A stretch of DNA of 37,261 bases. Source: Opitutales bacterium (lineage in GTDB: Bacteria > Verrucomicrobiota > Verrucomicrobiia > Opitutales > Oceanipulchritudinaceae). The translations under genes were made by a program, and so were the position numbers. The stretch spans positions 1 through 37,261 of the forward strand of contig JAFIGE010000041.1 in the NCBI GenBank assembly GCA_020831585.1. Direction: 5' to 3'. Of the stretch, positions 9,201 through 32,728 are shown one piece after another. The notes beneath the pieces were generated by a model, which made no database searches, had not been told where the DNA came from, and was given only the letters and a program-made list of their open reading frames with translations. Numbering within the stretch: position 1 is the first letter of the stretch; the number at the start of each line of letters is the position of its first letter.

Positions 9201-10539
9201 GGGGCAGGGCGGGGGTGGCCCCGAAGTCGTTGGCATAGGTGCCGCCGGAGGGAGAGGCGCGGTTGGTCCCCAGCCAGGTGAAATCTTCCCCCGGCCCGGA
9301 ATGGAGGGTCGGTTCATCCGCCGCGATGCCTGAATTGCGCCCCCAGCGGCGCGCGACATTCCCGATGAAACCTTCGGAAAAACCGGTGCGGAAACCATCC
9401 AATCCAGTGGCGAAGGTCGCGGTGGGGAGGATGATGAATTCGCCGGAGTAAGCGGCGCGCGCGCTGCGGAGGTTGAGCGCCTGCGAGGCGACCGCGCGCA
9501 CGGCACCCGCGCCCACTTCGATTACATGGCGTTCATCCGGCAAGAGCCCGGCATGGGTGAGCGAAAGGACGGCTCCGGCCACATCGACTGCGGATAGCGG
9601 CACTTCGTCGCCGGTTTCGACATTGAAGACCCGCACGAGACTGGCGTCGAGCAGCTCCACCTCGCGGTCGAAGGTAACAGTGAACGGATCGGCCACCCCG
9701 AGGGTGTCGCTGTGGGAGGCGATGGCGGGCTCCGCCGGGAGAACGGTGAAGCTCCAGAAAATGTCGCCATTCACGATGCCCGGATCGCCATCGAGGGTGA
9801 GGGCTCCGGCGGGCACGCTCACCGAGTAGGTCTGCCCGTAGGCCAAGGCCGGGGACAACTGCAGGCGGGCACCCGCGGCGGAAACCGTGCCCGCAGGGAT
9901 CTCCACGCCATCGGAGAGGCGCGTCACCCGGATGCCGCTGGCGTCGGCGATGTTGATGGCGGCATTGAAATCCACATGCACGGGCACGCCGACATCGGCT
10001 GTCGATGAACCGGGGGCGGGCGAGCGGTCGACCGAGCGCAGGCCGTTGGGCTCGCCGAGTATCTCCAACTCGAACATCCGCACCTGGTTTTGCGCCGCCG
10101 CCGAGAAGCCGGTGAAGACCATGCGCACCCGTTTGCTGGCCAAGGTCGGCGTGAAGCTGATGTCGACGACACCGGCATTCACATGATCGACTTCACTGTG
10201 GATCACCTGCCAGGCTTGGCCATTCCATTGCTGCAAGGCGAAGGCCGTGAGGGGCGAGCCATAGGAACCGCCTCCGCCGGTCCAGAAACGGAAGCCCGAG
10301 AGGACACTTTCGTATTCAAGATCCACTTCGAGCCAGTGGCTGGCACCTCCGGAAGAGATCCAGCGTCGGGAGTCCGTGGTAAAGTTGCCATCAACGGCGG
10401 CCCACCCGGGCGTGTTGGAGTTGTTTTGCGAGCTCGCCACAACCGGTCGCTGAAGGGCCAGGTTGGACGGTGTTGCGAGCGCGCTGGCGCCCGAAAGGGT
10501 GATTAAACAGAAGACAAGAAGGGTACGGAGGGGTAGCAT
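223..10539 (-). CDS. Giant exported multidomain protein with a heparinase/alginate-lyase-like core
   Basis: The protein has 3438 residues when started at the ATG at 10539, which begins a clear signal peptide (MLPLRTLLVFC..., likely cut near residue 22). An in-frame upstream start at 10719 would bury that signal and is not used. Rough modules: discoidin/F5-8C-like 24-160; two Big_5-like Ig domains 164-365; a carbohydrate-binding-like beta domain 375-530; Ig-like 536-625; a second such beta domain 630-765; Ig-like 766-860; a beta-propeller-like region 860-1320; an alpha-toroid plus beta-sandwich region 1323-2015 opening with HPRLFFG and containing SNWQG and GGHDGPDGLGF; FN3 2018-2110; putative Ig (He_PIG) 2113-2205; PKD-like 2205-2300; further Ig-like units; InlB-B-like 2730-2806; and a DPDADGIPN calcium-type motif near 3320 before the tail. 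The core resembles heparinase II/III or related alginate lyase families, so cell-surface or secreted polysaccharide degradation is inferred. Catalytic residues are not proven. No other gene appears co-transcribed. Confidence 0.8.
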   Translation of the reverse strand: MLPLRTLLVFCLITLSGASALATPSNLALQRPVVASSQNNSNTPGWAAVDGNFTTDSRRWISSGGASHWLEVDLEYESVLSGFRFWTGGGGSYGSPLTAFALQQWNGQAWQVIHSEVDHVNAGVVDISFTPTLASKRVRMVFTGFSAAAQNQVRMFELEILGEPNGLRSVDRSPAPGSSTADVGVPVHVDFNAAINIADASGIRVTRLSDGVEIPAGTVSAAGARLQLSPALAYGQTYSVSVPAGALTLDGDPGIVNGDIFWSFTVLPAEPAIASHSDTLGVADPFTVTFDREVELLDASLVRVFNVETGDEVPLSAVDVAGAVLSLTHAGLLPDERHVIEVGAGAVRAVASQALNLRSARAAYSGEFIILPTATFATGLDGFRTGFSEGFIGNVARRWGRNSGIAADEPTLHSGPGEDFTWLGTNRASPSGGTYANDFGATPALPLEEGEQYTLTFQYALNNTDLRVDLRPIPVRDQAGPVGTIFPHNHGFHSTGNFTITAESTGPQHFVFYGPFNGNSYPWIRIDNVSVVKTVPPAIHWDTPEADVTILEKTPLQIRGDAFGISAPLNWVRVYLDDRLLGQFNQSRFDLTLTDYDPGHHTLRIVARDTRGIESTLERPITVLFADGTLSPFVQYSFRDGMEGVTANTTIQNGYLNFPSNDGVVWASTPRLFLRAGESYVVQFNAHRANASNHTLFLSLEDAPGYPADPVVLADFNVNQLAWVTYQTTIHVEANGAYFITLFNDGQQNANRVWIDNIRIVGDFNSAPSVAFTSPPNGTTTLAGAPIRLSATAADTDGHVERVEFWNGPLPIATLTSPPYEWLWESAPVGNLTVTALAFDNDGGVSDPATVSINSLENRVSISTNLGSAAGDEIFRAAVYQPDGTLVLGGNVDPHAFGGITPQVLSSAPPDATGVVVRMSGDGRTVLSVSVVGDHVAGLSVDATGNIHVAAGGTGILKLNPTADTLIWHHPAATFGISGKQAHRIDTGDDGTTAALFANGAYGSQTLGGGEIVIIAPDGTPHPASMPASGGTYTTDIAIDTARERVWITGWKNFTTFEGSFNFPVDVPIFAARSYAAGDFGTRLIRGYDWESNDDNGRWLNRLENNMADTRAQRVVIAPNGDIYIALEYDGGNTPIRRSPYDLAVTVPIVGGDQYHNNAFTTTAPKVAIIRLEPEDGAFISGQYLVPRLSSGGDNTIRITGGGLAVDAVGRVHIVGGVAAGAPHTFNPLPGLYTGGGIHWVMSPDLASRELVTRWATSGSLAAVAIAPNGRVALAGHISAEGPAENPTDRLYRRRAFHPERLGTSDALLVVGDFSHYYSFQPGNHPRLFFGAEDIPELRHRATQAPFDEMVATLVASLDHNGDYLPFDPNHSYSRSMRAKINAFLYVLTGDEAHALAAREDVQWVIDGNHYAWADPALMGLRSYWMATHVALAYDWCAMSPHWDDAFLFTVSTALLDIAKVIVNNGGTEQNSNTSSNWQGARGSAGGLALLATDSRFDPALLDAAYSRARNYINASVGTHPQTRGWAAEAVGYTAYPYGLFVGPFAQAMARLDGRDLAAETALSEAYLALISARTSGVNVYDYGGIKPDWANDNMHIRGEGVYGQAFHFIDPTLLPAARWVYDRLQGPLAPDRARWDDTRGGTIWSFLHYPADVPPQSPLEFYGWQSAKIDQHGIGISTFRNAYSDEHDILAQFKARLFAVGGHDGPDGLGFRVIGNNTAWVVGGGRNDPAKTINQSTLYKVEPGAQLPGSTNLNTGTLVGTPLVKTDGGGHIIASMEINNMGVINHKRWFAVDFDEAATGAQAVLLVADTSNDGTHWQLPTSPFNTVSTSGNTFTITAPDGATLHGTVLHPAGATLAHGTRPRGDGFAPQFGGSLADIDPVLNPDVAENKFITAQGSGGQFLVAMTIQPAGQSHPTPARTGGTVADATVEIGARTYTFTTDDILYDGLPYTHPPAQIVFDAGDGIVLSGSTHQSVPYGGSPTAPEVEPPAGSIFLGWDRAFDAVTRDMLVSAVYVPLEAVPSAPSFLRGSASTGGNVHLLWNDNSFGETGFTVQESVAGGSWNTVATVPENTTHTTLAGRPASTQLAYRVRAEGTGGPSPWSNTFDILTPPTNLPPEFLSTPPTVAQEGATFQYAILAEDPDEDSLVLSLVSGPSWLNLFDGGGGLGILMGVPVAGPPAQVVIAASDGINPPVEQSFTLEINPAPGITLIWPGETPVYLQPGHGLHAAVSVNPMAAGLSWNVIQGPSGTWIGSPHAEATDIYFDRAGTYTVRVTATAPEGATSQMDFQVLVDREPVREPVDVLEYDKSAGYVTTDRNFRDTAPLEEFGRRFHPFSTRDGGGVWQSPLNPAESAALHGGRFFGGWVAQRTDSSNTLNMPNPRGIDASGRLSLLFNSAYPATMHAVFFWLREDFKNADPSDSVILGPNSEFEIAFDHFNEVGQMRWLAMADGDFFVSQSTIANTSVGRRLTGIEIAAEMWAPFYPEAPRALAFDRDTPFDVPTSALGELEGVGFIVDALSPPERRFQLRVARFALTGEISEPFHAAPFITIGDPAPAIPGQTANLGATATFMPTTLTSDVLWTASGPASVTFGDATAAATTATAPVPGLYTLRLTATDDLTTTFRQVEWIVEPSEGSATLSILQPGAGAVFNLGDSVELAGSALDGEGADVSAQATWTSSIDGLLGSGSPLTVSTLSVGTHTLTFAYEYAPGLSVSDSVGITIEPPPPPPVYSVAFIADAGGSITGTLAQSIEAGGSTSPVTAVPDSGQLFTEWTWSGGSSTDNPLVLLDINANLTVTARFEPEPPPPAGTLTHHPGVSVYDASDFRTLTSAQLNENVGVNAAAFFMQTFLMPEDATVAAVNLVMNNVNDGKSYEIRLHQFGAAPGNSLSDADVAATTLVSSGPQTVPDGTKAETNPGGGGLPSTLTWMLPSPIALEAGTVYAISIWQAESDPSSLVWRYARNGAVYSGGTAYGNQGTGGNWSTSTILSGTNNDFSLGLVYQVGPGNTPPDVAILSPADHATFTEGEPIDFLGSANDAEDGDIAHLGQWTSSLDGVLGTGAGLTLTTLTVGTHEITFAATDSGELQESASITLTVEPAPPPPPAERSYLLTFGNTVYSTDGTRHWQSFRLQQTPGTASPKQEHHNVLLADTNGLEDGGIRVTLTADVTANMGLQTGSQVVAGDFAANPFDWFTPSEAAQRETASFDQPGAGWTYAFDGFNPTDEVTFQLVIRRTGVDRFIRLTFDPGGPAEVVLLDQTDSGVTQYVTHTVSGSDAYNFRITSQSAPGFWVALVNAMAVHVVTAPTAASPYETWANAAGLIGTEADPLADPDADGIPNLLEFALEGHPLQPGTAQLPVMSEVLYDGLPHLRLEVSRNPDATGLDYIVEVSSDLVNWSALEDMDIITLEDTAGSLVVEDAHPMSPGSPRFIRLRLEMNPGQ

Positions 10540-11148
10540 GGTAGAAATTTCCGCAAAAGAACCCGCCGCAGAAAAGCCCAGGTTTTCTTTAACTATCAAA
10601 TTGCAGCTTTCGCGCGGGCGTCTGGGTAGTGAAACCTGTCTCCCTGATTTTCGGTTGATTGCGTGGTGGCGGCGATATCTCGACAATATCCCGAACGCTC
10701 TTTGGGTGAGGCGCGGCAACGACCCGTGCCAAGCCTGGAGAGACCTGGGGCAGGGGCAAATCCCCCTGCGCGGGGGGTCATTGGGGAGGCACGCCGGATT
10801 TAGGGCTTATGAATCCGCAGTCGGATGAAGCGCGGGCTGCCGGGGCCCGGGGGACGGCGCGAATCAGCGTTTTTTGCGAGGCCACACCCATGCCGTTGCA
10901 GGTCATCCACGCGATCAGGAAGCAGCCGTGCGGCGAGTCCCGGCCGCGCGATGCCATGGGGGCTGGTGCGGTGGATGCCGTCGCAGACAAGACAAAGCGG
11001 ACCGCCTTGAAGCAGTCCGGGTTTCATAGACAAAGAGCTCTGGCAGTAGAAGCGAAGCCCTCGCGGGGATGTGCCTATCTTCGAGGATCGTTTTCTCCCT
11101 TCAGCGAAGAGTCGAGCGTTCTCTCCGGTTTGAAAGGATCAATGGCCC
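10540..11148. other. Gene-poor stretch between the giant gene and tatC
   Basis: No intact gene is convincing here. The stretch holds the 5' flank of the giant minus-strand gene, whose start has no clear Shine-Dalgarno sequence, and a GC-rich hairpin at about 10750-10769 (GCAGGGG / CCCCTGC arms). It also holds the decayed C-terminal coding tail described separately. Short open frames on both strands overlap one another and lack recognisable domains or start signals. Confidence 0.5.
10800..10860 (-). pseudogene. Remnant of a C-terminal tail related to the giant protein
   Basis: Read on the minus strand, this stretch encodes GPGSPRFIRLRIHKP and then a stop. It closely matches the end of the giant protein, SPGSPRFIRLRLEM, located 10 kb away on the same strand. 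The DNA also matches through the codons for SPRFIRL. Upstream sequence to about 10990 is open in two frames but does not form a recognisable domain. The simplest reading is the 3' scrap of a deleted or frameshifted secreted-protein gene. It could also be a chance C-terminal fragment of a short unrecognised gene. Confidence 0.45.
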
Positions 11149-14955: not shown

Positions 14956-14994
14956 GCCCCCGTTCGGATCTGTTCCGGACGGGGGCTTTTTTTT
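14956..14994 (+). terminator. Rho-independent terminator of ppdK
   Basis: A 12-bp stem (14956-14967 with 14975-14986, one G-T wobble) closes a 7-nt loop and is followed directly by eight T residues (14987-14994). It starts 33 bp after the ppdK stop codon. This is a textbook intrinsic terminator. Confidence 0.9.
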
Positions 14995-15391: not shown

Positions 15392-18300
15392 ATGAAGAAA
15401 AAAATCCGTCCTCTCCCGTCTTTTTTCCGTTACCCCATTTCCGCCCCGTTGGCCGGCCTGTGTGCTCTGGGTGTTCTCTTTGCCCTGCCGCTCGGGGCGG
15501 ATTGCGAACCGGGTGTTTGGGACGCTGACTTTGGCGTTCCGGGGGCGAGCGGCAGTGTGCGGGTATTCGCTCATCAGGGGCGCACGTCCGACAATCGCTT
15601 GATCGCGGGGGGCTTCTTCTCCGAGATCGGCGGGGTGTCGGCAGGCCGGGTGGCGCAGTGGGACGGTTCGGCATGGACTCCACTCGGGGATGGCTTTTCG
15701 AGCGGCACAGTATGGGCCCTCTCCACGGATTCGCCGACGTTTTTTCCCGTCATCGCGGGCATGACATCCGGGGACCGCGTCTACGGGTGGAACGGGTCGG
15801 AGTGGACCACACTGGGCGGTGGCTTTAGCAACGGCGTGGTCTATGATTTTCTCACGGCGGATGTGGGCGACGGCAACCGCCTGCTCGCGGCGGGATCATT
15901 CGGATCCCCTGCCCGTGTGGCCCAATACAACAGCTCGTCGGATTCCTGGGAGTCCATCGGAAGCGGTTTTGTCAACGGCACAGTGCGGGCACTCGCGGAA
16001 TACGGTTTTGGCAACGACCGTGCCGTGTACGCGGCGGGCAGCTTTACCACAGGAGGCGGTTCGCCCGCCAACCGGATCGCGCGCTGGAATGGGAGTTCGT
16101 GGGTGCCGGTGGGCGGCAGCCCTTTTGAAAACGGGATCATCTACGCGCTCGCCGTCTTCGATGACGGCACAGGCCCGCACCTTTATGCCGGCGGCAGTTT
16201 CACAGTCGCAAACGGTTCGGTGGCAGACCGCGTGGCTCGCTGGAACGGCAGCGAGTGGGAAGCCGTCGAAGGCGGTTTCGCGAGCGGCACGGTATGGTCG
16301 CTCGAAGTTATCGATGATGGCACTGGCCCCGCGCTCTACGCAGGCGGCAGCCAACCGGGCCGGATCAGCCGCTGGAACGGCGAGTCCGGTGCGGGATGGG
16401 AAAACGTCGGGCAAGCGACGAGCGGCTCTGTCCACGCCCTCGCGGCATGGGGCGAATCCCGCGCCGATCTGTATTTCGGCGGACTCTTTTCCTCGATGGG
16501 CGGAGAGGACGCTTCCAACATCGCGCGGATGAGCGGGTGTGCGCCCATGTACCGCACGCCGTCGGCCATCTCGGCAGAGGTCGACTCCTTCACGGCCCCC
16601 GGCTTCACCGGTTTCATTATCAGCTCCGATGAAGACAACCCCGATCCGGAGTATGACCGCGACGCCATCCGAGCCCAGGTGGGGGCGACTTTCCGCCGGA
16701 CCTTTGGGTTGTCCGCTTCCGGCCAGTTCCGCGTGGCTTTTCAGGTCCTCGACAGCGAGGGCAACCCACTGCCGCTCCGCGGGGCGACCGGACCGGATCA
16801 CCGTGTCCTCACGGGATGGCGGACGGTGAGCCTGACGCTCTTTGGCGGAGCCACGCAGTCGGAGACATTTTCGGCGGACCTGCGTCCGGAGGGAGAATGG
16901 CCGCCTTTCGGGGCCGTGCGCCTCCGGGCCACCATCATCCGCTGCCTGGAGCCTTATGATTCCGCTTTCGGTTGCGGCGAAAAAATCGCTGAACAAGCCA
17001 CGACGGGGGCGAGCACGATTCTCCATTTCGCCAACATGGAGAGCGACGATGCCGCCCTCAATGTGCGCCCGTGGCTTTCGAGCGTTTCCGTGCAGCGCCG
17101 CCACATCATCGATACGGCCGAGGGCGAGGAACACTTCCGCGCGCGGGCGCTCTTCGCCGTCTACCGCTACGACGGTTTTGCCGGTGCGAGTGATGGCCCC
17201 GATCCTGTGGATTTTCATTTTGATGTCACTGTGCGCGACGCCGACGGCACCGTGGTCCCGCTGGCGGAAGACCGGGTCACCGTCACGCGCAACATCCGGC
17301 GCTGGAGTAACGGATCTCCGCGCACGCCTTCGGTGACATCGGAGGAGGCCTTCCTCGATTTCCGGCCAGCCGGTCAGCTTGATTCGACGGCCGGTCCGTT
17401 CACGATTGAAGTGGAGTTGTCCCACACGGAGCACCCGGCCGCGCCGCCCGCTGAACAGGAGTTGTTTGCCGGGGCACGGACCTCTTCGAATAATCGGCTC
17501 CTGCATTTCAATGGCGACCTCTTCTTCGACGATATCCGCTTTGTCATCACCGAGGTTGAGAGCACACCGGTTTACACGGGTTCGGGAGGGCTGAACTCCG
17601 TGGAGGTGTCGCTGGATGTGGCGGAGAGCGGTGCTTTTGCGGCCAAGGTGCCCAACCAGTCACTGGGGTCGGGCGACGCCCTGACTGTGCGTCTTCTCAA
17701 TACCGGTCGAGCCATTGTCATGGATGGCTCGCGCTCGGTGCGGCCGACAAGCGGAGATCCGCTGGAGGCGATTTCGGATGTCAACGGCATCCGCTTTTAT
17801 CGGGCCGTTGTGCAGGCGGACGCCTCCGGGCTGAATATCCCCGCGACTTTCCTTCTACTTCCGCCGGGTTTCACGTTTCGTGCCGAGGTGCAGGAGTCCG
17901 GAGAGTTGCGCGGCTTCGCTTTTGTGCTCCTGCCCGGTGCGGGTCCGCTGGATGAAAATCTACACCCCGCCTTCGATCCATCAGAGACCTACAGTCCGGA
18001 GAATCGCGCCATCCTTCAGGAAGACGCCCGGCCCATTGCTTACCATGCCACTTCGCTCACCTGGAACACCAGCGGAGGCTTCATTGAGTTGGGCGGCATT
18101 GAACCGGTCTATGTTAACGAATGGCGCTACGCGCAATTGGAAACGTGGGCCGAGGGAGAGTTTATCACCCCCGAAGAGGCCCGCCGACTCAGCAACAAGG
18201 GCCACTACCGTTGGGTTGTGGGTGTTTCCGACCCCATGCGTATCTACGGCGCGGGCGAGGGTACCGGCGGGATACAGGCGCAGCTCGTATACGGAGCCGG

Positions 18301-21300
18301 AAGCTACCAGCCTCACTTTCCCCGCACTGGTCCTGTGGAGTGGAACTTCGGGGGCATGGTTATTGAAGACGGGGAGGTCACCGTGGGCAACAGCTTCCTT
18401 GCGGAGGTCAGCCCCATCGAGATCGAATACGGGCAAACCTGCCCGGAAGCCGCCTGTGACGACGACGGGAGCAGGGTCTTCAACTTCATTCCCGACGATG
18501 GCCGCCTGAACTTTACCGCCGATGGCGGATTGCACGCGTCCGGCCAACTGAGTGGCCACGATCACCTGCAATGGGGTTCGCTGGGCGGCGGAGATTTCGC
18601 CTACAACGTCATCAATGCCCAGCGGGGTCATCTGCACATTGCCGGCCACCACGCCCGCCATTCGGAGAGCTCCGTGACCGCAGGCGAAAAGCCCGCCCTC
18701 ATTCTCTACGCGGGCGTCGATCCCTCGGCCCTCGATCTCTACGAGCGCCCCGGACAAGCTGCTTATGCCGACGGTCTGGGTGATTACGCGGGAGTCAACC
18801 TGCGCGTGCCCACCGATGCATCCGGTGCGGCCATCAGCCGGATCGGCGGGGAAAACATTCCTTTTACCCTCACCGACCGTTCCAAATTCTATGTGCGCGA
18901 GCGCGGGGTTACCGGGATCTACGAAGAGAGCCCCGGCACCTTCGGCGCTCCCGACGGCGAACTGACCCTCTACGGTTATGATTTCACCTTTGACCGCTAC
19001 GGGCTGAACTTTGAGTTCGGTAGCAACCTCCTCTCCATCACCAACGGGAGCGTGACGGTGCCGTTTCCCTCCGACTTCACCCAATCTTTCGCGGGCCTCA
19101 CCTTCACCTGTCTCGGGGCACCCGATTCCGCCGAACCCCCCGAAGGCGAAGACGATCCCTTGCCCCTGGCCTACTGGCAGGCCTCCTTTTTCACGCGGGT
19201 GATCAACTTCGCGCAAGATCCCGCGAACCTTTGCGGCGATGCGAATGCCTTTCTCACCCTCGGCCTCTCCGTGCCCCTGGGAGCCCTCGACACGACGGCC
19301 CATGGCGTCCTCGGTTTTCTCCCCTCGGGCAACATCATGACTTGGGCCGAGGCCTCCGCCGAAAACCTGCCGGGCCTCACCTCGCGCCTCCCTCTGCCGC
19401 CCGGTATCACCCTCGCCGGACCCGAGGAAGAAACCTACCACCTTGATCCCGTCACCGAGCTCTATTTCAACGATTACCGCGCCCACGACGGCACCGGGGC
19501 CGTGGGCTTCGTCACTTTCGCCACCACGACGGCCGTACCTTTCTTCAAGGACCTTCAGGTGCAGGTGATGACCAGCGCCCAGGCTGATGTGGAAAACGCG
19601 GTCATCTACCTCGCCGGCGGCTGGCCCGGCGATGGCTGGCGCGACGGCGATTTGCACTTCTTCACGTCCTCCACCTTTGACCGTGCGCACCGCGCCTTCC
19701 CGCAAGGCATGGCCCTTGATGATTACCGCACCGCCGACGAGGATTCGGATGATACCTACCTCGTGAGGGCCGTGCAAAATTGGCTCGATGTGGTGCAGTT
19801 CAATTACCCGCTCCTCTGGAGCAACACCCTCCGCACCTTCCGCTCCCAAGAGACCCTGAACGAGGACTTGCTTGTCGTATTTGTAAACCACCGCGTGGAA
19901 CGCCTGAGCCCGCGCAACGCCGAACTGATCTTCGGGGCCACCTACGACGGCCTCCCCCAGGTCAACCTCGCCGCCATTGCCGTATCCGCCATCGATGAAG
20001 CCACCGGTGCCGCCTCCGCCCTCATTGAGGCGGTGGGCGAAAACGGCCGCGGGCTTATCGACTCCCTCGGCGGGGGGATCGATTCCGCCGCCGATCTCTT
20101 GCGCGACCGCATGGACGTCCTCTTTGGGCCGATGCTCGATAATGCCCTCGATGCCGTGATCGATCCCGCTTACGCCGCCCTTGAGGATGCTTTCAACACC
20201 ATCCAGGCGACCGCCGACAACATCGACGAATTGCAGGATGAATGGGCCTCCGAGCGACTCACCATTCTCGAAGAGTTCCTTACCGGCACGGTCGGCGATG
20301 CCGAAGCCACCCTTGTCGGTGCGCTTACCCAGCTTGACGGACTGGTGGCCGATGCCGATGGCCTCCTCGGCCAGGTCGATCAGCGGCTTGCCCGTATCCA
20401 ACTTTTCATTGCGGCGATGATTGACGAGGTGCAGCTCGATATCGACGGGCTACCCATGCCCAACTTCAATCCCAACCACGAGGCCCTCATCAACGAGGCC
20501 CTCGATGCTTTGCCGCTCCCCGGCCTCCTCGCTGAGATCGAGGGCGAACGCCAAATCATCCGCAACTTCGCCGAACTCCTCGTGCAGCAGCTCTCGCCCG
20601 GAATTGCCGATGCCCTGGGAGCCGCAGAGGAAATTCTGGGTGAGCTGGAGGCACGCCTTGAAGCCCTTCTGGAGCGCGCCGAACCCACCATCGATCGCAT
20701 CGTCACCGTCCTTGAACGGGCCGACGAAGAAGTGCAAAACGTCCGCGATCTTCTCGCTGAGGGCAGCGCCTACGCCAACGAAATCCGCGGCATGTTTGCC
20801 AGTGCCGGGAGCGAGATCGAAACCCTCGCCGGAGAGGTGCGCGACGCCATCGACGATTTTTTCCAGACCATCGAAGACCATCGCCCCGCCACGCCCGTGG
20901 GCGATTTCGTCTCGCAGGTGCGCTCGCCCTTTGACGATTTCGATCCCGAGGAAATCAAAGAACGCATCCGCCAGGAGGTGCGCGACCGCTTTTATCAAAC
21001 GGCCGTCATTGATGAAGTGCAGCAGTTCCTCAAAGCCCAGCTCTACGAGGTGGATGCCCTCATCCAGGATGCTGTCGATACGGCCCTTCACACTATCAAT
21101 CACACCATCCGCGACTTTCTGGCCGATGCCGTGGCCGAACTCGACGACACCATTAATGGCGTCATCGGACCCCTCGGAGACTACATCGGCTCGGGTGATA
21201 TCGCGGGCTACGCCCACATCCAGGGCGAAGCGCTGCGCCTTCTCCGCCTCGACGGTGCCTTTGAATGGCAAGTGCCCAAAGAACTCACCTTCCAAGGCTA

Positions 21301-22075
21301 TCTGCAAATCCGGCAGTTTGACGCGGAGGGGCCCGCCGCCGCCTGCGGCCCTGTGGGCGAGCCCTTCAACGAGGTGGAAATCGGGGCGGTCGATGTGCCT
21401 CTCGGCTGGATTTCCGATGGTATGCGCGCCGATGTGATGACCCGCTTCTCCTTCGAGACGGGGCCCTTCCGCCCGACCGGACTCGCGGGGGCCTTCGAAC
21501 TCACCGGCGGTGCGCTTGATTTCGAGGCCTTCACCATCCGTGCCCTCGGCGCGTCCGTGGCCTTCGGCACGCAGGAGAACTATATCAGCGCGGCCACGGA
21601 AATGGAGTTTTCCGATTATCGCCTTGCCGGCGGCGTCTTCTTCGGGCGCACCTGTACCTTGCAGCCCATCGAACTGTGGGATCCCGAAGTGGCCGCCTTG
21701 CTGGGGCCGCCCGATCCCACCTTTACCGGCGCGTATGTTTACGGGGAGGGGTGGATTCCCATCTCCGAGGCCCTTCTCGGCTTCCCGGCGTCGTGCATGT
21801 TCCGCATTTCCGCGGGGGTGGGGGCAGGGGCCTTTTACTTCGCCGAGGGGCCGACCTATGGCGGGCGCCTCTTCGCCGGAATCAGCGGGGATGCCCTCTG
21901 CCTCGTTTCCATCAAAGGGGAAGCCCGCCTCGTTGGCGTGAAGCAAGGGGATGACTTCCGCTTCTCCGGCAGCGGCAACGTGGCCGGCCGCGCGGGCAAG
22001 TGCCGCTTCTGCGTGCGCTTCTCCAAAACCGTAAACCTCAGCTACAGCGAAGGAAGCTGGAGCGTCGACTACTGA
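15392..22075 (+). CDS. Giant exported protein with beta-propeller repeats and a long helical region
   Basis: No known function is recognised in this 2227-residue product. It starts with a signal peptide (basic MKKKIRP, hydrophobic stretch, probable cleavage around 36). Residues ~85-345 hold six repeats of the form W-[ND]-G-x-x-W-x-x-[LVI]-G-x-G-F-x-x-G-x-V, spaced 43-53 residues apart and linked by DDGTGPxLYAGGSF-type strands. This type occurs in PVC-group secreted proteins and probably folds as a beta propeller. Residues ~370-1520 are beta-rich and unassigned. Residues ~1525-1930 are almost entirely amphipathic helix, rich in Asp/Glu/Ala/Leu, with little Gly or Pro, and could form a long coiled coil or helical bundle. 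The last 300 residues are beta-rich with several Cys (GRTCTL, PASCMF, KCRFC). It is the first gene of a three-gene operon and lies 6 bp before the next start. A surface or extracellular structural role is a guess. Confidence 0.75.
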   Translation: MKKKIRPLPSFFRYPISAPLAGLCALGVLFALPLGADCEPGVWDADFGVPGASGSVRVFAHQGRTSDNRLIAGGFFSEIGGVSAGRVAQWDGSAWTPLGDGFSSGTVWALSTDSPTFFPVIAGMTSGDRVYGWNGSEWTTLGGGFSNGVVYDFLTADVGDGNRLLAAGSFGSPARVAQYNSSSDSWESIGSGFVNGTVRALAEYGFGNDRAVYAAGSFTTGGGSPANRIARWNGSSWVPVGGSPFENGIIYALAVFDDGTGPHLYAGGSFTVANGSVADRVARWNGSEWEAVEGGFASGTVWSLEVIDDGTGPALYAGGSQPGRISRWNGESGAGWENVGQATSGSVHALAAWGESRADLYFGGLFSSMGGEDASNIARMSGCAPMYRTPSAISAEVDSFTAPGFTGFIISSDEDNPDPEYDRDAIRAQVGATFRRTFGLSASGQFRVAFQVLDSEGNPLPLRGATGPDHRVLTGWRTVSLTLFGGATQSETFSADLRPEGEWPPFGAVRLRATIIRCLEPYDSAFGCGEKIAEQATTGASTILHFANMESDDAALNVRPWLSSVSVQRRHIIDTAEGEEHFRARALFAVYRYDGFAGASDGPDPVDFHFDVTVRDADGTVVPLAEDRVTVTRNIRRWSNGSPRTPSVTSEEAFLDFRPAGQLDSTAGPFTIEVELSHTEHPAAPPAEQELFAGARTSSNNRLLHFNGDLFFDDIRFVITEVESTPVYTGSGGLNSVEVSLDVAESGAFAAKVPNQSLGSGDALTVRLLNTGRAIVMDGSRSVRPTSGDPLEAISDVNGIRFYRAVVQADASGLNIPATFLLLPPGFTFRAEVQESGELRGFAFVLLPGAGPLDENLHPAFDPSETYSPENRAILQEDARPIAYHATSLTWNTSGGFIELGGIEPVYVNEWRYAQLETWAEGEFITPEEARRLSNKGHYRWVVGVSDPMRIYGAGEGTGGIQAQLVYGAGSYQPHFPRTGPVEWNFGGMVIEDGEVTVGNSFLAEVSPIEIEYGQTCPEAACDDDGSRVFNFIPDDGRLNFTADGGLHASGQLSGHDHLQWGSLGGGDFAYNVINAQRGHLHIAGHHARHSESSVTAGEKPALILYAGVDPSALDLYERPGQAAYADGLGDYAGVNLRVPTDASGAAISRIGGENIPFTLTDRSKFYVRERGVTGIYEESPGTFGAPDGELTLYGYDFTFDRYGLNFEFGSNLLSITNGSVTVPFPSDFTQSFAGLTFTCLGAPDSAEPPEGEDDPLPLAYWQASFFTRVINFAQDPANLCGDANAFLTLGLSVPLGALDTTAHGVLGFLPSGNIMTWAEASAENLPGLTSRLPLPPGITLAGPEEETYHLDPVTELYFNDYRAHDGTGAVGFVTFATTTAVPFFKDLQVQVMTSAQADVENAVIYLAGGWPGDGWRDGDLHFFTSSTFDRAHRAFPQGMALDDYRTADEDSDDTYLVRAVQNWLDVVQFNYPLLWSNTLRTFRSQETLNEDLLVVFVNHRVERLSPRNAELIFGATYDGLPQVNLAAIAVSAIDEATGAASALIEAVGENGRGLIDSLGGGIDSAADLLRDRMDVLFGPMLDNALDAVIDPAYAALEDAFNTIQATADNIDELQDEWASERLTILEEFLTGTVGDAEATLVGALTQLDGLVADADGLLGQVDQRLARIQLFIAAMIDEVQLDIDGLPMPNFNPNHEALINEALDALPLPGLLAEIEGERQIIRNFAELLVQQLSPGIADALGAAEEILGELEARLEALLERAEPTIDRIVTVLERADEEVQNVRDLLAEGSAYANEIRGMFASAGSEIETLAGEVRDAIDDFFQTIEDHRPATPVGDFVSQVRSPFDDFDPEEIKERIRQEVRDRFYQTAVIDEVQQFLKAQLYEVDALIQDAVDTALHTINHTIRDFLADAVAELDDTINGVIGPLGDYIGSGDIAGYAHIQGEALRLLRLDGAFEWQVPKELTFQGYLQIRQFDAEGPAAACGPVGEPFNEVEIGAVDVPLGWISDGMRADVMTRFSFETGPFRPTGLAGAFELTGGALDFEAFTIRALGASVAFGTQENYISAATEMEFSDYRLAGGVFFGRTCTLQPIELWDPEVAALLGPPDPTFTGAYVYGEGWIPISEALLGFPASCMFRISAGVGAGAFYFAEGPTYGGRLFAGISGDALCLVSIKGEARLVGVKQGDDFRFSGSGNVAGRAGKCRFCVRFSKTVNLSYSEGSWSVDY

Positions 22076-22081
22076 TTGATC

Positions 22082-25000
22082 ATGCGACACCGATTCTACC
22101 TTCTGGCCCTATTCTGGGCGCTCACCTCCGCCGCACGTGCGGGTGATGATATTGATTTCCTCTACACTGCCGGAACGGTCACGCAAAACGCCGCCGGTCA
22201 GTCCTGGGCCTATGTCGCTTGGCAAAGCACGGGCGAGGGCGTCCCGCGCGGACCGTTTTCGATCCACGCCAAGCCGGGCGGTCCCGATTCAGCGGCCGAT
22301 TTTTCCCGCGTGGCCATCGTCGAGCCGCTTTACGATCCCGCCGTTATCCGGTCCGTCCTCTCCCGCGCACGCAATCTCGGCGAGGATCTCGACGCGCTCG
22401 AAGAAACGGCCCGCCGCCTCTTCCTGGATGTCCTTCCCGATGGTGGCTTCGAACTCGAAGAACTCCTCTCTGTCGTCTTCTACAGCGCGGAAAATGATCC
22501 GGAGCTTTTCGAGACGCTCACCCTGTTTGCCCGTATGCACCCTGCGGTCGCTCTCTGCCTCGGCTGGGGCTACGCCATGCCCCTCCCCGCCGGAGAGACC
22601 ACCATCGAGCTGCGCCGCCATGATCTTTCCAGCGGTGCCGATACGTCGGTCGTGGGGCGCGTGACCCTCGACCCCGCCGTGGATTATCGCTTGCCCGCTC
22701 CCGGTCCGGGCGTCGACCGCACCCTCACGGATTCGCGCGGTCACCTCAATGTGCGCCTCCTCTGGGGCACCGATGCAGACCTCCGGCGGCTCGCTCCTTT
22801 GCACTATGGCTTCAATATTTACCGACTCGACCGCTCCCTCGCCGAGGAGCTCGATCTCGATGACGGCGATACGCCGGACATCGGGCTGTTCCCCGGCATT
22901 GTGGGCAAGGACGACCGCGCCCGGCGCGTAAACCGCCTCCCCGCACTCGCCGCCGAGGAGTTTACCGAGGCCCAGGCCGCCGCCGCCGCCAGTTCGCCGG
23001 ATGACGATCTCTTTTTCTTTGCCGACGACAACGACCGTTTCAACGAAGGGGAACCCTTCAACGACGGCGACCAGTTCCTCTACTTTATCACCGCCCGCGA
23101 TATTCTCGGGCGCGACGGCCATTCCTCGCCCGGCACCCTTGTGACCGTTTGCGACCGCATGCCCCCGCCCGTTCCCACGCGCCTCGAAGCCCGCAACCGC
23201 CGCGTTGGCTCGGGGGCTTCCGCGACCGGTGCCCTCGAAATTTCCTGGCAGCAGAATCCGGACATCCCGGCCAACCCCGGCGACACGCCCACCACGGGCT
23301 ACTACATTTACCGCTGGCGCAGCGTCGCGGAGATGAATGAGAATGCACACGACTTCCACCGGGGCATTGTCGGCTTCGTGCCCCATGTCGAGGGGCGCGA
23401 ACGGGCCGTCTTTGTCGACGATGGGCCGGGTGCGCCCACGGTCGAGGAGGATGCCGGCTTTACCTTCCTTTACACGGTAAGGGCGGAGGATTCGACCGCC
23501 TGTGGGGACCACGGCAACATCTCCGGCAACAGTGCCCCGGTGCCGGCCGTCCTGCGGGATTGGTCCGGTCCCGATGCGCCCACAGGAAGCGTTTCCGCTC
23601 TCTGCGGAAGTGTCCTCATCGAACCGTTTACCTTTCCTCCCGGAGAGGAGCCTGACCTGAGCCTCGAAGATGAACGCGCCCTCAACTACTTTCATTGGCT
23701 CATCGCCATCTTGATCGTCGATCCCATGATCATCTGGTACGAAGTCGGTACGGGCTTGACCGAGGAGGAAGCGCGGGCCTCCGTTCAGCGTCATTACGTA
23801 CGGCCCGACCGCGAAGGGGCCGATTTCTTCCCGCCCCAATATTACTATGTGCAAAAGCCGCGGGCGGCCTTCGACCTCAAGCAAGACAATCTCTATTACG
23901 TCATCCGTGCCGGTGCGAAGAGCGGTGCGGTCTCCGAGCGCGTCAGCGGAATGGTCGGGTTGCCCCAGGATTTCGACAGCGTCGAACTGATTCCCTACGA
24001 GATCGACCATCTGTGGGTCAAGGGTGGGGTAGACGGCCCCTGCTTCCAGCATGTCTCCCGCAATCCCGCGCCGGAGCCGGGCCAACCGGACATCCAGCCG
24101 CTGGAGATCACCTTCGTCATGCCGCACGACGCCGTGGAGTGGAAACTCTTCCGCCGGATCAACGACGGACCGCTCACGCTCGTGGGCCAGGATGCCGACC
24201 GCAGCCTCGCAGGCGAAACCGTCACGACCGAAGACGCCGCTCTCCCCGGCGCGCCCTCCACGCGCATTTGCTACTTCCTCCAAGCTTTCAACGCCAACGG
24301 CATGAGCAGTTCGCTCGTGCGGCTGGATTGCTTCGATGTCGCCCACAGTGGCTTCCAGCGGCCCCTCCTCACGCCCCTTACGCCCTTGGCCGATGCTGGC
24401 GATGGGCAGCGCCGCGCCCGCCTCCGTTTCTTCGCCCCGGCAGCGGGCACCGAGCGCTTCGAGATTTGGGTCGGTGCGCTTCCCGATATCACCCCCGATG
24501 CGATTTCAGGGGAGCTTTCGCCAGACATTTCCAATGGCGGAGTCATCCCCGCACTGGAGGGGTTGGAGGACTTTGGGGACCGAACCTTCCGTGTGTTTGA
24601 AACGCCCCGCCTTGGCGGAAGCTTTGGTGCCTCCGCGCCCGACTTCGAGATCGAGATCGAGCTGCCCGCCGGGGCTGATTACGCCTTTGCCGTGCGCCCG
24701 GTGGGGCGGGGACCCTGGGCACCCCCGGGGGATGAGGCCGGTGCCGCCCGCCTCGCCGGCCCCTTCAGCAACATCGAGACCTTCCGCTGGCACGCTCCCG
24801 AAGATGAGGACCCCGATCAGGTGCCCTGGCCCGCTCTCGACACCCCGCCCGTGCACAACGATTTTCATCCCATGGCCGATGCCCGCGTCCTGCCCGCCGG
24901 GTTTGGCGGGGGGGTGGGCTTCCGCATCGGGGAATTCACACTGGATCCCTTCATCGACGCCGTTCTCAATCAGCAGCCCGACAACACCCCGCCGCATATC

Positions 25001-25441
25001 AATTTTTACCCGGCGGACATTGAGCTGAACCAGGTTTTCTACCAGGCGAGCGAAAGCAATTTCCTCCTTTCGCCTGCCTCCGAGCGAATGCGGAGCCTAT
25101 TGCCCGGCGTGCTTTACCGTTATCAGATTGACGGCCCGCTCGGTACGGTTTCTGACCGGATCGTTCAAGTTTCGCCCTTGGCCCCGGCGGATATCCAGAG
25201 CTTTCTCTTCTCCCTGCCGGTGAGCGACCGGACCATCGAATTTCGACAGATTCTCGATACCTTTGTCCAAGCCGTGCGCGACGACGACGACGATTTTGTC
25301 GGTGCGCCCCGCTACGGGCTCTACCTCCTCGACACCATGCCGGTAGCCGCCGGTTCCACCTACGGCTACCTCCTCGTCCTCTTCGATGACGACGGCGAGA
25401 TCAACCGCGTCGTTCCCAGCCAACCCGTGCAAATTCAATGA
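22082..25441 (+). CDS. Exported FN3-like protein, second gene of the three-gene operon
   Basis: The ATG at 22082 opens a good signal peptide (MRHRFYLLALFWALTSAARA, cut before GDD) and gives 1119 residues. A TTG at 22076, directly after the stop of the previous gene, would add only two residues. No enzyme motif is seen. The N-terminal ~350 residues are unassigned and include an acidic stretch (ASSPDDDLFFFADDNDRF). From ~360 several fibronectin-III-like segments follow, each opening with a Pro-rich start such as PPPVPTRLEA (~360) and GPDAPTGSVSA (~494) and holding YYIYRW- or FEIWVG-type strands. This looks like an extracellular scaffold or binding protein. The 6-bp gap to the upstream gene and the ATGA overlap with the downstream gene imply translational coupling, so the three products are probably made in fixed proportions. 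Confidence 0.75.
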   Translation: MRHRFYLLALFWALTSAARAGDDIDFLYTAGTVTQNAAGQSWAYVAWQSTGEGVPRGPFSIHAKPGGPDSAADFSRVAIVEPLYDPAVIRSVLSRARNLGEDLDALEETARRLFLDVLPDGGFELEELLSVVFYSAENDPELFETLTLFARMHPAVALCLGWGYAMPLPAGETTIELRRHDLSSGADTSVVGRVTLDPAVDYRLPAPGPGVDRTLTDSRGHLNVRLLWGTDADLRRLAPLHYGFNIYRLDRSLAEELDLDDGDTPDIGLFPGIVGKDDRARRVNRLPALAAEEFTEAQAAAAASSPDDDLFFFADDNDRFNEGEPFNDGDQFLYFITARDILGRDGHSSPGTLVTVCDRMPPPVPTRLEARNRRVGSGASATGALEISWQQNPDIPANPGDTPTTGYYIYRWRSVAEMNENAHDFHRGIVGFVPHVEGRERAVFVDDGPGAPTVEEDAGFTFLYTVRAEDSTACGDHGNISGNSAPVPAVLRDWSGPDAPTGSVSALCGSVLIEPFTFPPGEEPDLSLEDERALNYFHWLIAILIVDPMIIWYEVGTGLTEEEARASVQRHYVRPDREGADFFPPQYYYVQKPRAAFDLKQDNLYYVIRAGAKSGAVSERVSGMVGLPQDFDSVELIPYEIDHLWVKGGVDGPCFQHVSRNPAPEPGQPDIQPLEITFVMPHDAVEWKLFRRINDGPLTLVGQDADRSLAGETVTTEDAALPGAPSTRICYFLQAFNANGMSSSLVRLDCFDVAHSGFQRPLLTPLTPLADAGDGQRRARLRFFAPAAGTERFEIWVGALPDITPDAISGELSPDISNGGVIPALEGLEDFGDRTFRVFETPRLGGSFGASAPDFEIEIELPAGADYAFAVRPVGRGPWAPPGDEAGAARLAGPFSNIETFRWHAPEDEDPDQVPWPALDTPPVHNDFHPMADARVLPAGFGGGVGFRIGEFTLDPFIDAVLNQQPDNTPPHINFYPADIELNQVFYQASESNFLLSPASERMRSLLPGVLYRYQIDGPLGTVSDRIVQVSPLAPADIQSFLFSLPVSDRTIEFRQILDTFVQAVRDDDDDFVGAPRYGLYLLDTMPVAAGSTYGYLLVLFDDDGEINRVVPSQPVQIQ

Positions 25442-28400
25442 AGACGTTTCTCCCCGCATCCCTTCTCGCCCTCTTTCTCGGCTCGGTCGCCCACGCCGCC
25501 TCCACTGTCTATGAGTCGCCCACGGAATGGTTCCTCACGGGCGATTTCAATGGCAACGGGCAGACCGATGTGCTCGTGGCCGAGCGCGCCACTGGCATCT
25601 TCCGTGTTGGCTTCAGCGAGCCGACCGGCGGCTACAGCTGGCTGCCCTTCCATCCTTCCGGCATCGCTCCGATTGACGATGCCCACGTGGGCAAAATCAT
25701 CGCCATGGGCTTCGATACCGTGGCGTTTGCCGGACGCGAGACCAATCGCATCAACCTTTTCCGTTTTCAGGGGGGCACTATCGCGCAACCCGTGACCGCC
25801 TTCACCACGGGTGTGGGTCCCGGCTTTGTCGCCTCCTCCGCCGACAGCATCATCACCCCCCGCGAGCTGCTCGTTGGGATCGCGGTCGAAGGGGGTGTCG
25901 ATGCGCCCTCGCAACCGGAGTCCTTCCTCACGGGCAGCCCGCATTTCCCCGCGCAATGGACATCCGATTTTCCGGAGACAACCCGCGCTTTCGGTTCCCT
26001 TGCGTTTGAACGCGGGTCTTCCCGTCTGGGCTACTGGATGACCTCCATGGGCGATGCCGCCAACTCCTGGGCAGTCCGTGGTCTTACCCTTACCATGGGT
26101 GAAGCCAATCTTTCCGCCCCCGAGCCCGTCCCGGATGAATCCCGCCTCGCCGCTGGCAACTTCTTCGCGGAAGACGATGCCGGAGCCCTCCTTGTTTACC
26201 AGCCCGGCAATGCCGGGACCTCGCTCCTCGTTGCGGAACTCTCCGGTATGGAAATGTTCTTCTTTTCGGCTGACGGTTTTTCGGCCGTTTTCCCCATCGG
26301 AGTGGTGCAGACCCTCCCGGACCCCGACGGGCAGGACATGCTCCTCGTTGTCGACGAGACTTTTGAGCGGGCCATGGTCTACCGCATCGACGCCCTGGGC
26401 AGCTTTAGCCGGCTAGAGGAACTCGGCCCTTCCTCCGGTTTCATCACCGGGGTGGCCCCGGATAACGCTGGCGGTTTCACGCTCTTCAGCGGGCCTTCTC
26501 CGCAAGGCCCTTCGGATACCTACACGCAGTATGGCTTCGATGGCACGGATTTCAGCGTCATTGGCAATGGTTCCTTCCCAGCCTGGCCTGCGCCTGAGCG
26601 GCTGCCCGCCAGCCTGGTCCTTTTCGAAGGCGAGGCCCTCGTCGACGACGATGCCCGCGTGCGCGGGCGCCTCTTCGCCGGGGAGTGGACCCGCTCCGCC
26701 GAAGCCACCCCCGGCATCAGCGCCGAGGCCGAGCGCTTTCGCAGCGAAGCTCTCGGCTTGGGTGACCCCGAAACGCTTTCGCTTGGCAGCCCGCCCCCGA
26801 ACGTGGACTACGCTCTTGCCAATCAGTTTCTTCCAAACGTTTCCTTCGCCAGCCTTGGCGGCCCCATCGGCTTTGGCGGCGATGCCACCCTCGAACCGGA
26901 GCCGCTCCCCGGCTCCTTTCGCACAAGTATTGCCGTTTCATTCCCGGAAGCCCACCCGCATGTGACTGGCGGACTCCGCGTCCTCTACCGCACCGATTCC
27001 GCCGCCGGTTGGACCGAATACACCGGAGCCTTTTGGCTCTACAAGGACTCCACTCTCCAGTGGGTCACGGTCGACACCTCGACGGGCACGCGCTCGCCCG
27101 TGCGCAGCGGCAGCTACCGCTTTCCAGCACCGCCCCACGAAATGGATTCGGACGGTGACGGCGTGCCCGACTTTGTGAAAATCGCCGCCGGCCTGGATCC
27201 GCTGGGCGGAACCGGTGCCGAGGGCGATGGTCTCTCCAGCCTCGAAGAGCTCCTGCGCATCGGTCCGATTGATCCCGGATCGTCTTTCGATGTTCTGGCC
27301 GCGGCTTCGCCCTTCGATGTGGTGGAAAATAGACCGACCATCGTCCGCAGTGGCACGCCCATCCGCGCCTACAACGCCTCCGGCACATTCCTCTCCGCAG
27401 CCGTGGCGGATGATGAGGACAGCGCATTCCCCGCCGTCCTCATCGAAGAACTCGATATCGACCGCGCCCGTCCCTATTTTGCCCTCTCCACGCCGCGTAA
27501 TTTCGACATCGAAATCAATCTGGAAGAAAGCCGCTACGGCCGTGAACTCCTCGCTCTTTACCCGCGTCCCCTCATCGAACGGCCCGTCGTCGACTACGTT
27601 TACGGCGGCGGTTCCCTCGGACAAGAGGCGGAAGCTTGGCGGCAGGCAGCGGTGATCGCTTATTCCGGGCATCATCGCACCCGCGTCGAAGCCGATTTGC
27701 GGCCCGTCGACACCCTCCACGCTGCCCTTTTTGAAGCCACTTTGTCCGCCCTGCTGAGAGCCCGCCGAGGAGATCCGGAAGAAGCCTTCACCGTCTTTCC
27801 CTTCCGCTCCGCCGATGCCGCCCGCTCCCCCATCGACCGCGAACAGCTCGCCGAACTGGGACGGGGTGATAGCACGCACATGCCCTATCGTGCTCTCGAC
27901 ATCCTCCACCTCCTGCGCAACTGGCTGCAAGCCGACGACCCCGGTGCAGCTGTCCTGCGTGAGTTAGCCGTCGACGTCTACCGCTCGGCTGCCAGCGGCG
28001 GACTGGAGATCCTCGGCCGCCATGCCATGCCCTTCGAGGCCTTTCGATACTTTTTGACCCACGGCGACCTGCCCGACGGCTACCTGCGCTTCACGGAATT
28101 GAGCGAGGGGCAGCGCCAGTTCGCTGCCGACACCGCGGCTCTCTGGATCGACGATGTGCCCGCCCGTCCCTTCGCCAGCCTGGCCCTCGAAGTTCCCGCT
28201 GATGCCGTTTCGCCCCTTTGCACGGTCCTCGTCGATCCCGCCACGGGGACCCGCCATGCCCTTCTCCGCGCCAACGGCGAACGCTTCCGCCTGCCCGGCA
28301 ACCTGGCCTTCTCCGAAGGCACCGTCCTTTTCGTGGACGGCTATACCGACGTATCTTCCGCCTGCGCCGATGCCGCTCTCGAAGTCATCAACATTGCTCT

Positions 28401-28839
28401 CTTTTCCTTCCCCACGCCCCGGGCCGGGGATCACGACGACAACCTCCTGCCCGATGCCTGGGAACGCTTCTTCCTAGGCACCACGGGACTTGATCCGCTC
28501 GCTTCTCCCGACGGGTCCGGTTTCAGTGCCCTCCAGCAGTTTCTCGATGGCACCGATCCCACCAACCCCGCCGACATCCCGAGCGGCGAGCCGGTGGACT
28601 TTTCCCCGCCAAGTTTGCGCATCGCCCGCGAAGGAGGCTCCCTGGCCATTGACTGGGACTGGCACCCCGCCTACGCCGACGCCTTTCGCTTCCGCGTCGC
28701 CCAAAGCACGGATCTGGAGTCCTTTGTCTCCACCAGCCAGGAAGGCGAGCACACCGGCAGCGGCCGCTTCGAAGTGACCCTCCCCGAACCCGCCCCCGGC
28801 ATCCCCGTCTTCTTCCGGATTGAAATGTCTCTCCGCTGA
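25438..28839 (+). CDS. Exported FG-GAP/thrombospondin-3-like protein, third gene of the operon
   Basis: The start ATG overlaps the previous stop (ATGA at 25438-25441). The 1133-residue product has a signal peptide (MKTFLPASLLALFLGSVAHA). Near 37-46 it carries an FG-GAP/VCBS-like calcium motif, GDFNGNGQTDVLV. Two thrombospondin-3-like Asp-rich motifs follow, DSDGDGVPDF near 568 and DHDDNLLPDAW near 998. The tail module has STDL near 1090 and ends APGIPVFFRIEMSLR, resembling the end of the giant protein at 223-10539. The ~370 residues between the two calcium motifs are more helical and match nothing I recognise. The protein is probably surface-exposed or secreted and calcium-stabilised. A terminator follows within 25 bp, so this is the last gene of the operon. 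Confidence 0.75.
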   Translation: MKTFLPASLLALFLGSVAHAASTVYESPTEWFLTGDFNGNGQTDVLVAERATGIFRVGFSEPTGGYSWLPFHPSGIAPIDDAHVGKIIAMGFDTVAFAGRETNRINLFRFQGGTIAQPVTAFTTGVGPGFVASSADSIITPRELLVGIAVEGGVDAPSQPESFLTGSPHFPAQWTSDFPETTRAFGSLAFERGSSRLGYWMTSMGDAANSWAVRGLTLTMGEANLSAPEPVPDESRLAAGNFFAEDDAGALLVYQPGNAGTSLLVAELSGMEMFFFSADGFSAVFPIGVVQTLPDPDGQDMLLVVDETFERAMVYRIDALGSFSRLEELGPSSGFITGVAPDNAGGFTLFSGPSPQGPSDTYTQYGFDGTDFSVIGNGSFPAWPAPERLPASLVLFEGEALVDDDARVRGRLFAGEWTRSAEATPGISAEAERFRSEALGLGDPETLSLGSPPPNVDYALANQFLPNVSFASLGGPIGFGGDATLEPEPLPGSFRTSIAVSFPEAHPHVTGGLRVLYRTDSAAGWTEYTGAFWLYKDSTLQWVTVDTSTGTRSPVRSGSYRFPAPPHEMDSDGDGVPDFVKIAAGLDPLGGTGAEGDGLSSLEELLRIGPIDPGSSFDVLAAASPFDVVENRPTIVRSGTPIRAYNASGTFLSAAVADDEDSAFPAVLIEELDIDRARPYFALSTPRNFDIEINLEESRYGRELLALYPRPLIERPVVDYVYGGGSLGQEAEAWRQAAVIAYSGHHRTRVEADLRPVDTLHAALFEATLSALLRARRGDPEEAFTVFPFRSADAARSPIDREQLAELGRGDSTHMPYRALDILHLLRNWLQADDPGAAVLRELAVDVYRSAASGGLEILGRHAMPFEAFRYFLTHGDLPDGYLRFTELSEGQRQFAADTAALWIDDVPARPFASLALEVPADAVSPLCTVLVDPATGTRHALLRANGERFRLPGNLAFSEGTVLFVDGYTDVSSACADAALEVINIALFSFPTPRAGDHDDNLLPDAWERFFLGTTGLDPLASPDGSGFSALQQFLDGTDPTNPADIPSGEPVDFSPPSLRIAREGGSLAIDWDWHPAYADAFRFRVAQSTDLESFVSTSQEGEHTGSGRFEVTLPEPAPGIPVFFRIEMSLR

Positions 28840-28862: not shown

Positions 28863-28890
28863 CTCGGACCCCTCTCTCCGAGATATTTTT
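28863..28890 (+). terminator. Intrinsic terminator of the three-gene operon
   Basis: A 6-bp stem (CTCGGA at 28863-28868 with TCCGAG at 28877-28882) closes an 8-nt loop and is followed by ATATTTTT. It lies 23 bp after the stop codon of the last gene in the operon. The stem is short but the placement and T-run support the call. Confidence 0.6.

Positions 28891-32653: not shown

Positions 32654-32728
<75 letters not shown>

Follow-up and report, generated by a model that had tools for sequence, protein, structure and literature searches.

A recurrent three-gene cassette for giant exported proteins in Verrucomicrobiota, candidate parts of one extracellular assembly

Among the described systems closest to the locus analysed here are two groups of giant proteins. 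The Giant1-5 cluster of Apilactobacillus kunkeei is, like our locus, a row of adjacent genes that encode extracellular proteins of very large size; neighbours co-diverge, and the products are thought to function in binding and cell interaction (PMC12863079). Giant proteins of other PVC bacteria (Omnitrophota and Ca. Menyafoubacter) share with our proteins the large size, a Sec signal peptide and export, and resemble them further in TSP3 and carbohydrate-binding type domains and in their saline or soda-lake setting (PMC12057145). The present locus lies in a window (the whole stretch of DNA that was analysed) of 37,261 nucleotides from an Opitutales bacterium, and comprises three genes, here called P1, P2 and P3.

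Layout and anatomy of the three genes

The genes and the hairpin that follows them are:

15392 to 22075, plus strand: P1, first gene of the cassette, 2227 aa from an ATG start, exported, signal peptide read from the sequence
22082 to 25441, plus strand: P2, 1119 aa from ATG 22082 (TTG open reading frame from 22076), exported, built of FN3-like modules and best conserved in its N-terminal half
25438 to 28839, plus strand: P3, 1133 aa, exported, FG-GAP-like at the N-terminus, with two TSP3-like calcium motifs and a C-terminal domain of its own
28863 to 28882, plus strand: weak terminator-like hairpin 3' of P3, 6-pair stem, not above chance

The three genes are consecutive on the plus strand, form a unit of about 13 kb and encode proteins that are acidic as well as very large and exported. 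P1 ends with TGA at 22073-22075; the mechanical open reading frame call starts P2 at TTG 22076, but ATG 22082 is a better fit, giving a protein of 1119 aa and a gap of 6 bp, while the stop of P2 and the start of P3 overlap as ATGA. The initial annotation had described three giant genes with exactly this spacing and a signal peptide on each product, and both points hold with P2 read from ATG 22082, since a Sec-type hydrophobic N-terminus can be read on all three proteins. The terminator with which it closed the operon is weak and not significant, 2 sites being found compared with 0.8 +/- 1.0 in shuffles. No conserved transmembrane segment was found past the N-terminus of P1, P2 or P3, no transmembrane-like segment at the C-termini of the window proteins, and no surface anchor or outer-membrane passenger signal was recognised in the trio; PEP-CTERM or LPXTG-type sorting (motif, transmembrane segment and basic tail) is absent from the C-termini of the homologues seen.

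On the 5' side lies a pyruvate phosphate dikinase gene, which ends ahead of a strong terminator at 14956-14986, and on the 3' side lie tig, clpP and clpX, followed by a tRNA-Met gene (32654-32728, minus strand). Another giant exported protein of the window, unrelated to the trio, is encoded at 223-10719 on the minus strand; it is a modular protein of 3498 aa with F5/8 type C, bacterial Ig, PKD and InlB-type repeat domains. Across lineages, no gene family is shared between the flanks of the cassettes. At three loci a LuxR-type (GerE) regulator lies directly beside P1 (L105 16089-17192, L112 3378-4478 and L119 2071-3363), divergently at two of them, and is a possible regulator of the cassette; in one genus a Na/Pi cotransporter gene follows the cassette on its 3' side.

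Within the proteins, the following parts were delineated:

15509 to 16531, plus strand: N-terminal beta-propeller of P1 (about residues 40-380), DUF5122 and Rax2 models both exceed their cut-offs, confined to the orthologous clade of the window
16559 to 17509, plus strand: two tandem related domains of P1 (about residues 390-545 and 567-706), from profile-profile self comparison
17729 to 19981, plus strand: conserved central region of P1 (residues 780-1530), including Cys1017, Cys1022, Cys1240 and Cys1281
19982 to 21166, plus strand: amphipathic helical, acidic stretch of P1 (residues 1531-1925, about 400 residues)
21164 to 22072, plus strand: C-terminal region of P1 (residues 1925-2227), most conserved part of the system, six near-invariant cysteines
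27139 to 27252, plus strand: first TSP3-like stretch of P3 (residues 568-605), relatives above cut-off, weak MtsD match
28507 to 28836, plus strand: C-terminal 110 residues of P3, second TSP3-like motif and C-terminal domain, matched at full length in the genome by cassette P3 proteins only

The propeller of P1 exceeds the Pfam cut-offs (DUF5122 44.8 bits against 27, Rax2 32.4 against 28.8), and with the helical stretch it bears out the earlier picture of a propeller combined with a long helical rod. It is present in the P1 orthologues of the window and nearly absent, with low occupancy, from the other cassettes, and in the P1 of locus L163 an InhA-like MAM domain, above cut-off, stands in its place. 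The two tandem domains are alike in the profile-profile self comparison (HH probability 90.8, E 1.2e-6). Mean column identity climbs from the N- to the C-terminus of P1 (32, 38, 42 and 58% in successive segments), the highest value being that of the last 303 residues across paralogues; this C-terminal conservation could stem from a function other than assembly. Ten cysteines of P1 are near-invariant (1017, 1022, 1240, 1281, 1985, 2088, 2135, 2170, 2204 and 2207), each position being covered by 36-42 aligned sequences, 29-42 of which keep the cysteine, and Cys2204 and Cys2207 are lost jointly, a pattern of ten conserved cysteines as expected for an oxidising compartment. AlphaFold2, run on an alignment of three near-identical sequences, gave a mean pLDDT of 34 for P1 residues 1480-2227 and 29 for residues 540-1490. 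Matches of P1 to PDB entries (apolipoprotein, chemoreceptor, haemagglutinin) were set aside as generic helices, consistent with an amphipathic helix bias, and matches to tape-measure, LeoBC and DUF5713 models, located in the helical stretch, were treated as composition.

For P2 and P3, the module types announced by the initial annotation are matched in relatives. The FN3-like character of P2 is supported by fn3 matches in 7 of 21 relatives (best 2.3e-5), whereas the P2 of the window has none; its first 500 residues are the best conserved portion, and six cysteines (359, 476, 510, 656, 732 and 752) are common. The calcium-type FG-GAP/TSP3 reading of P3 likewise agrees with the 22 relatives, 11 of which match FG-GAP_3 and 10 TSP3_bac (best 1.6e-15), while the P3 of the window stays below the FG-GAP_3 cut-off. 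Full-length matches of the last 110 residues of P3 in the genome are seven P3 proteins only, which led us to reject this domain as a general export signal; a few additional short matches are limited to the TSP3 motif. These are the module types of FG-GAP/TSP3/FN3 surface proteins such as the myxobacterial MtsD, whose model reaches 11.2 bits on P3 against a cut-off of 800, and the conserved cores of P1-P3 match no family. FG-GAP, FN3 and TSP3 are also found in many non-adhesin proteins.

Beyond these modules, searches of Pfam, NCBIfam, PHROGs and PADLOC returned no family over the conserved cores of P1-P3, nor did PDB sequence-profile searches, which also gave nothing for the beta regions of P1. 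A known family with a defined function covering the proteins, which would have spoken against the initial annotation, was thus not found in these databases, and neither was an enzyme, pore, RHS or secretion family in P1, P2, P3 or their homologues, in agreement with its statement that the trio carries no enzyme signature. Searches of viral contigs, plasmids and phages gave no relatives of the trio proteins, and no description of the trio was found in the literature searched, subscription papers being outside that search.

Glycan-binding proteins commonly contain propellers, MAM-type domains and FN3 modules, and the presence of the first two at P1 N-termini, together with FN3 modules, would suit a complex for polymer capture and extracellular degradation that binds polysaccharide and feeds enzymes, in a role like that of surface glycan-binding proteins. 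Related Verrucomicrobiota of soda lakes do degrade alginate (PMC13274419). Such a complex is nevertheless quite improbable here, because glycoside hydrolase, polysaccharide lyase, TonB-dependent transporter, SusD and surface lipoprotein families were not found in the trio, and the flanks of different lineages have no gene family in common.

Occurrence and co-divergence of the three families

The initial annotation had proposed looking for the same three-gene order in other genomes, and it recurs at about 60 loci, well above chance. P1, P2 and P3 follow each other in the same order and on the same strand in 47 complete cassettes (all three on one contig) and 13 contig-edge cassettes from Opitutales and other classes of Verrucomicrobiota, with intergenic spacing that is mostly short or overlapping. 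When 177 relatives were searched with each protein, all three families were held by 17 genomes, the identical 17 for P1, P2 and P3, and 160 had none of the three at full length (Fisher p ~5e-24 for co-occurrence); additional matches, for P1 in 2 genomes and for P3 in 3, are confined to the propeller or the TSP3 motif. Among 388 genomes drawn evenly from the phylum, with P1 probed by its C-terminal profile and P3 counted at full length, P1 was found in 21, P2 in 22 and P3 in 22, 21 being common to all. Of the two odd genomes, G400 has P1 and P2 paired at a contig edge, and G356 has a P3 beside the end of a P2 whose frame is broken. One trio alone was seen to be split, its intact P1 lying on a different contig from P2-P3 (G383; L197 7146-12584 and L196 303-7216), and the only cassette insertion is an exported-looking protein of 2124 aa with an InlB-type repeat between P1 and P2 (L173 3330-9704). 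Homologues that occur singly and never together had been named as evidence against the system; the opposite was found, obligate co-occurrence in one order. The closest named relatives of the window are Opitutales MAGs, one of which comes from an isolate series with the label CSSed.

The 5.3-Mb genome of the window holds seven cassettes, the highest number per genome: C199 (the window), C36, C126, C143, C183, C52 and C142 with C181, the last two probably being a single cassette divided between contigs. The window's own cassette is intact, and P1 is interrupted in five of the seven (C36, C126, C143, C183 and C181). The frame changes or stops lie at L093 1727-1754, L094 5400-5439, L096 17487-17547, L183 1931-1970 and L198 1627-1631, two of the junctions coinciding with poly-C tracts, of 7 C in L093 and of 9 C in L094. 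The interruptions may reflect assembly error, slippage-based switching or decay.

Large, acidic, exported proteins that lack an enzyme family, occur in multiple copies and include an extended helical section could also form a structural coat, a sheath, stalk or matrix round the cell with paralogous versions for different conditions and no specific ligand. We regard such a coat as unlikely, since most members of a lineage should then carry it, whereas the trio is patchy (17/177 and 21/388 genomes), and since the exchange of N-terminal domains in P1 better fits recognition.

To follow the divergence of the partners, trees were built from 42 cassettes and their distances correlated, giving 0.78 for P1-P2, 0.79 for P2-P3 and 0.69 for P1-P3, and for 22 of the 42 the three trees agree on the nearest neighbour. 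As a control for species history, paralogue labels were shuffled within genomes only, 5000 times. The mean correlations fell to 0.54, 0.58 and 0.49, respectively, and the observed value was attained in none of the 5000 shuffles for P1-P2 and P2-P3 and in 15 of 5000 for P1-P3, indicating that the partners diverged together as cassettes. The three proteins therefore co-occur and co-evolve as partners, as subunits of a complex would. The partial correlation derived from these values is lowest for P1-P3 (~0.2, compared with ~0.5 for the other two pairs), which fits a placement of P2 between P1 and P3.

A proposed extracellular assembly

Taken together, these features lead us to lean, with modest confidence, towards the trio as a self-contained cassette for one extracellular fibre-like complex with a role in recognition or adhesion. 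The initial annotation had suggested fixed-ratio synthesis of a multi-protein extracellular structure; gene coupling, export signals, cysteines and co-evolution are consistent with this, and from them we infer a physical complex, its location and the chain order P1-P2-P3. The role in recognition or adhesion is suggested by the exchange of tips, the module types and the patchy distribution.

In the proposed assembly, which may be attached to the surface or released, P1 would be the long subunit, running from a variable N-terminal tip through tandem beta-type domains, a disulfide-rich core and the amphipathic helical section to a conserved C-terminal base. The tip would be exchangeable, a propeller in the window and an InhA-like MAM domain in another lineage. 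P2 would serve as an FN3-module adaptor bridging P1 and P3, P3 as the calcium-dependent FG-GAP/TSP3 part, and the C-terminus of P1 would form the fixed base together with P2. Translational coupling would ensure near-equal synthesis of the three proteins, and paralogous cassettes with diverged tips could provide a repertoire of surfaces, with several versions coexisting in one genome. The likeliest targets would be polymers, particles or other cells. The lack of a recognised surface anchor or outer-membrane passenger signal counts against this proposal, as do the five interrupted P1 genes, which could be due to decay or assembly error.

Comparison with known systems

Tc toxin complexes also consist of three large co-encoded subunits, one of them with FG-GAP-like repeats. 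Three large coupled exported subunits, an FG-GAP part, patchy distribution and paralogous cassettes would be compatible with a secreted weapon, a multi-subunit complex acting on other cells in the manner of such toxins, and giant proteins of other PVC bacteria have been interpreted as predatory weapons (PMC12057145). For the trio we consider this very improbable. No toxin, TcA/TcB, peptidase or immunity family was found in the trio or its homologues, and the Tc features (RHS-repeat cocoon, TcA/TcB domains) have no Pfam match in 17 P1, 21 P2 and 22 P3 homologues at E 0.1. In addition, P1 varies at its N-terminus and is conserved at its C-terminus, whereas variation in polymorphic toxins is typically C-terminal (PMC3482391). 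Contractile tail, sheath and baseplate genes of an extracellular contractile injection system were not found, nor were shared flanking genes, and eCIS_core gave an isolated weak match (0.0098) in 1 of 22 P3 homologues.

Obligate co-occurrence in one order and the lack of a family over the conserved cores strongly support the initial annotation's view of an undescribed system. Whether it represents a new class of Verrucomicrobiota extracellular machine is a more tentative matter; we see it as possible, though doubtful, that the trio is a modular fibre whose recognition tip can be exchanged while the base stays fixed, that several versions coexist in each cell, and that the trio is unrelated to all secretion, adhesion and toxin systems described so far. 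A unit of this length, present in up to seven copies per genome and inherited almost solely whole, is a large investment, and P1, P2 and P3 provide named, testable families with which to study surface construction in environmental Verrucomicrobiota and their recognition of polymers or neighbours.

The Giant1-5 proteins differ from the trio in being Gram-positive, 3000-8000 aa long and equipped with beta-solenoid N-termini, a distinction drawn from their published description, and, unlike the trio, they form no fixed three-family cassette repeated within a genome (PMC12863079). The giants of Omnitrophota and Ca. Menyafoubacter are single proteins of ~6000 aa and upwards that carry enzyme or RHS-like domains and form no trio (PMC12057145). 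Compared with these, the cassette indicates that giant exported proteins of Verrucomicrobiota can be obligate multi-part systems and not just single oddities.
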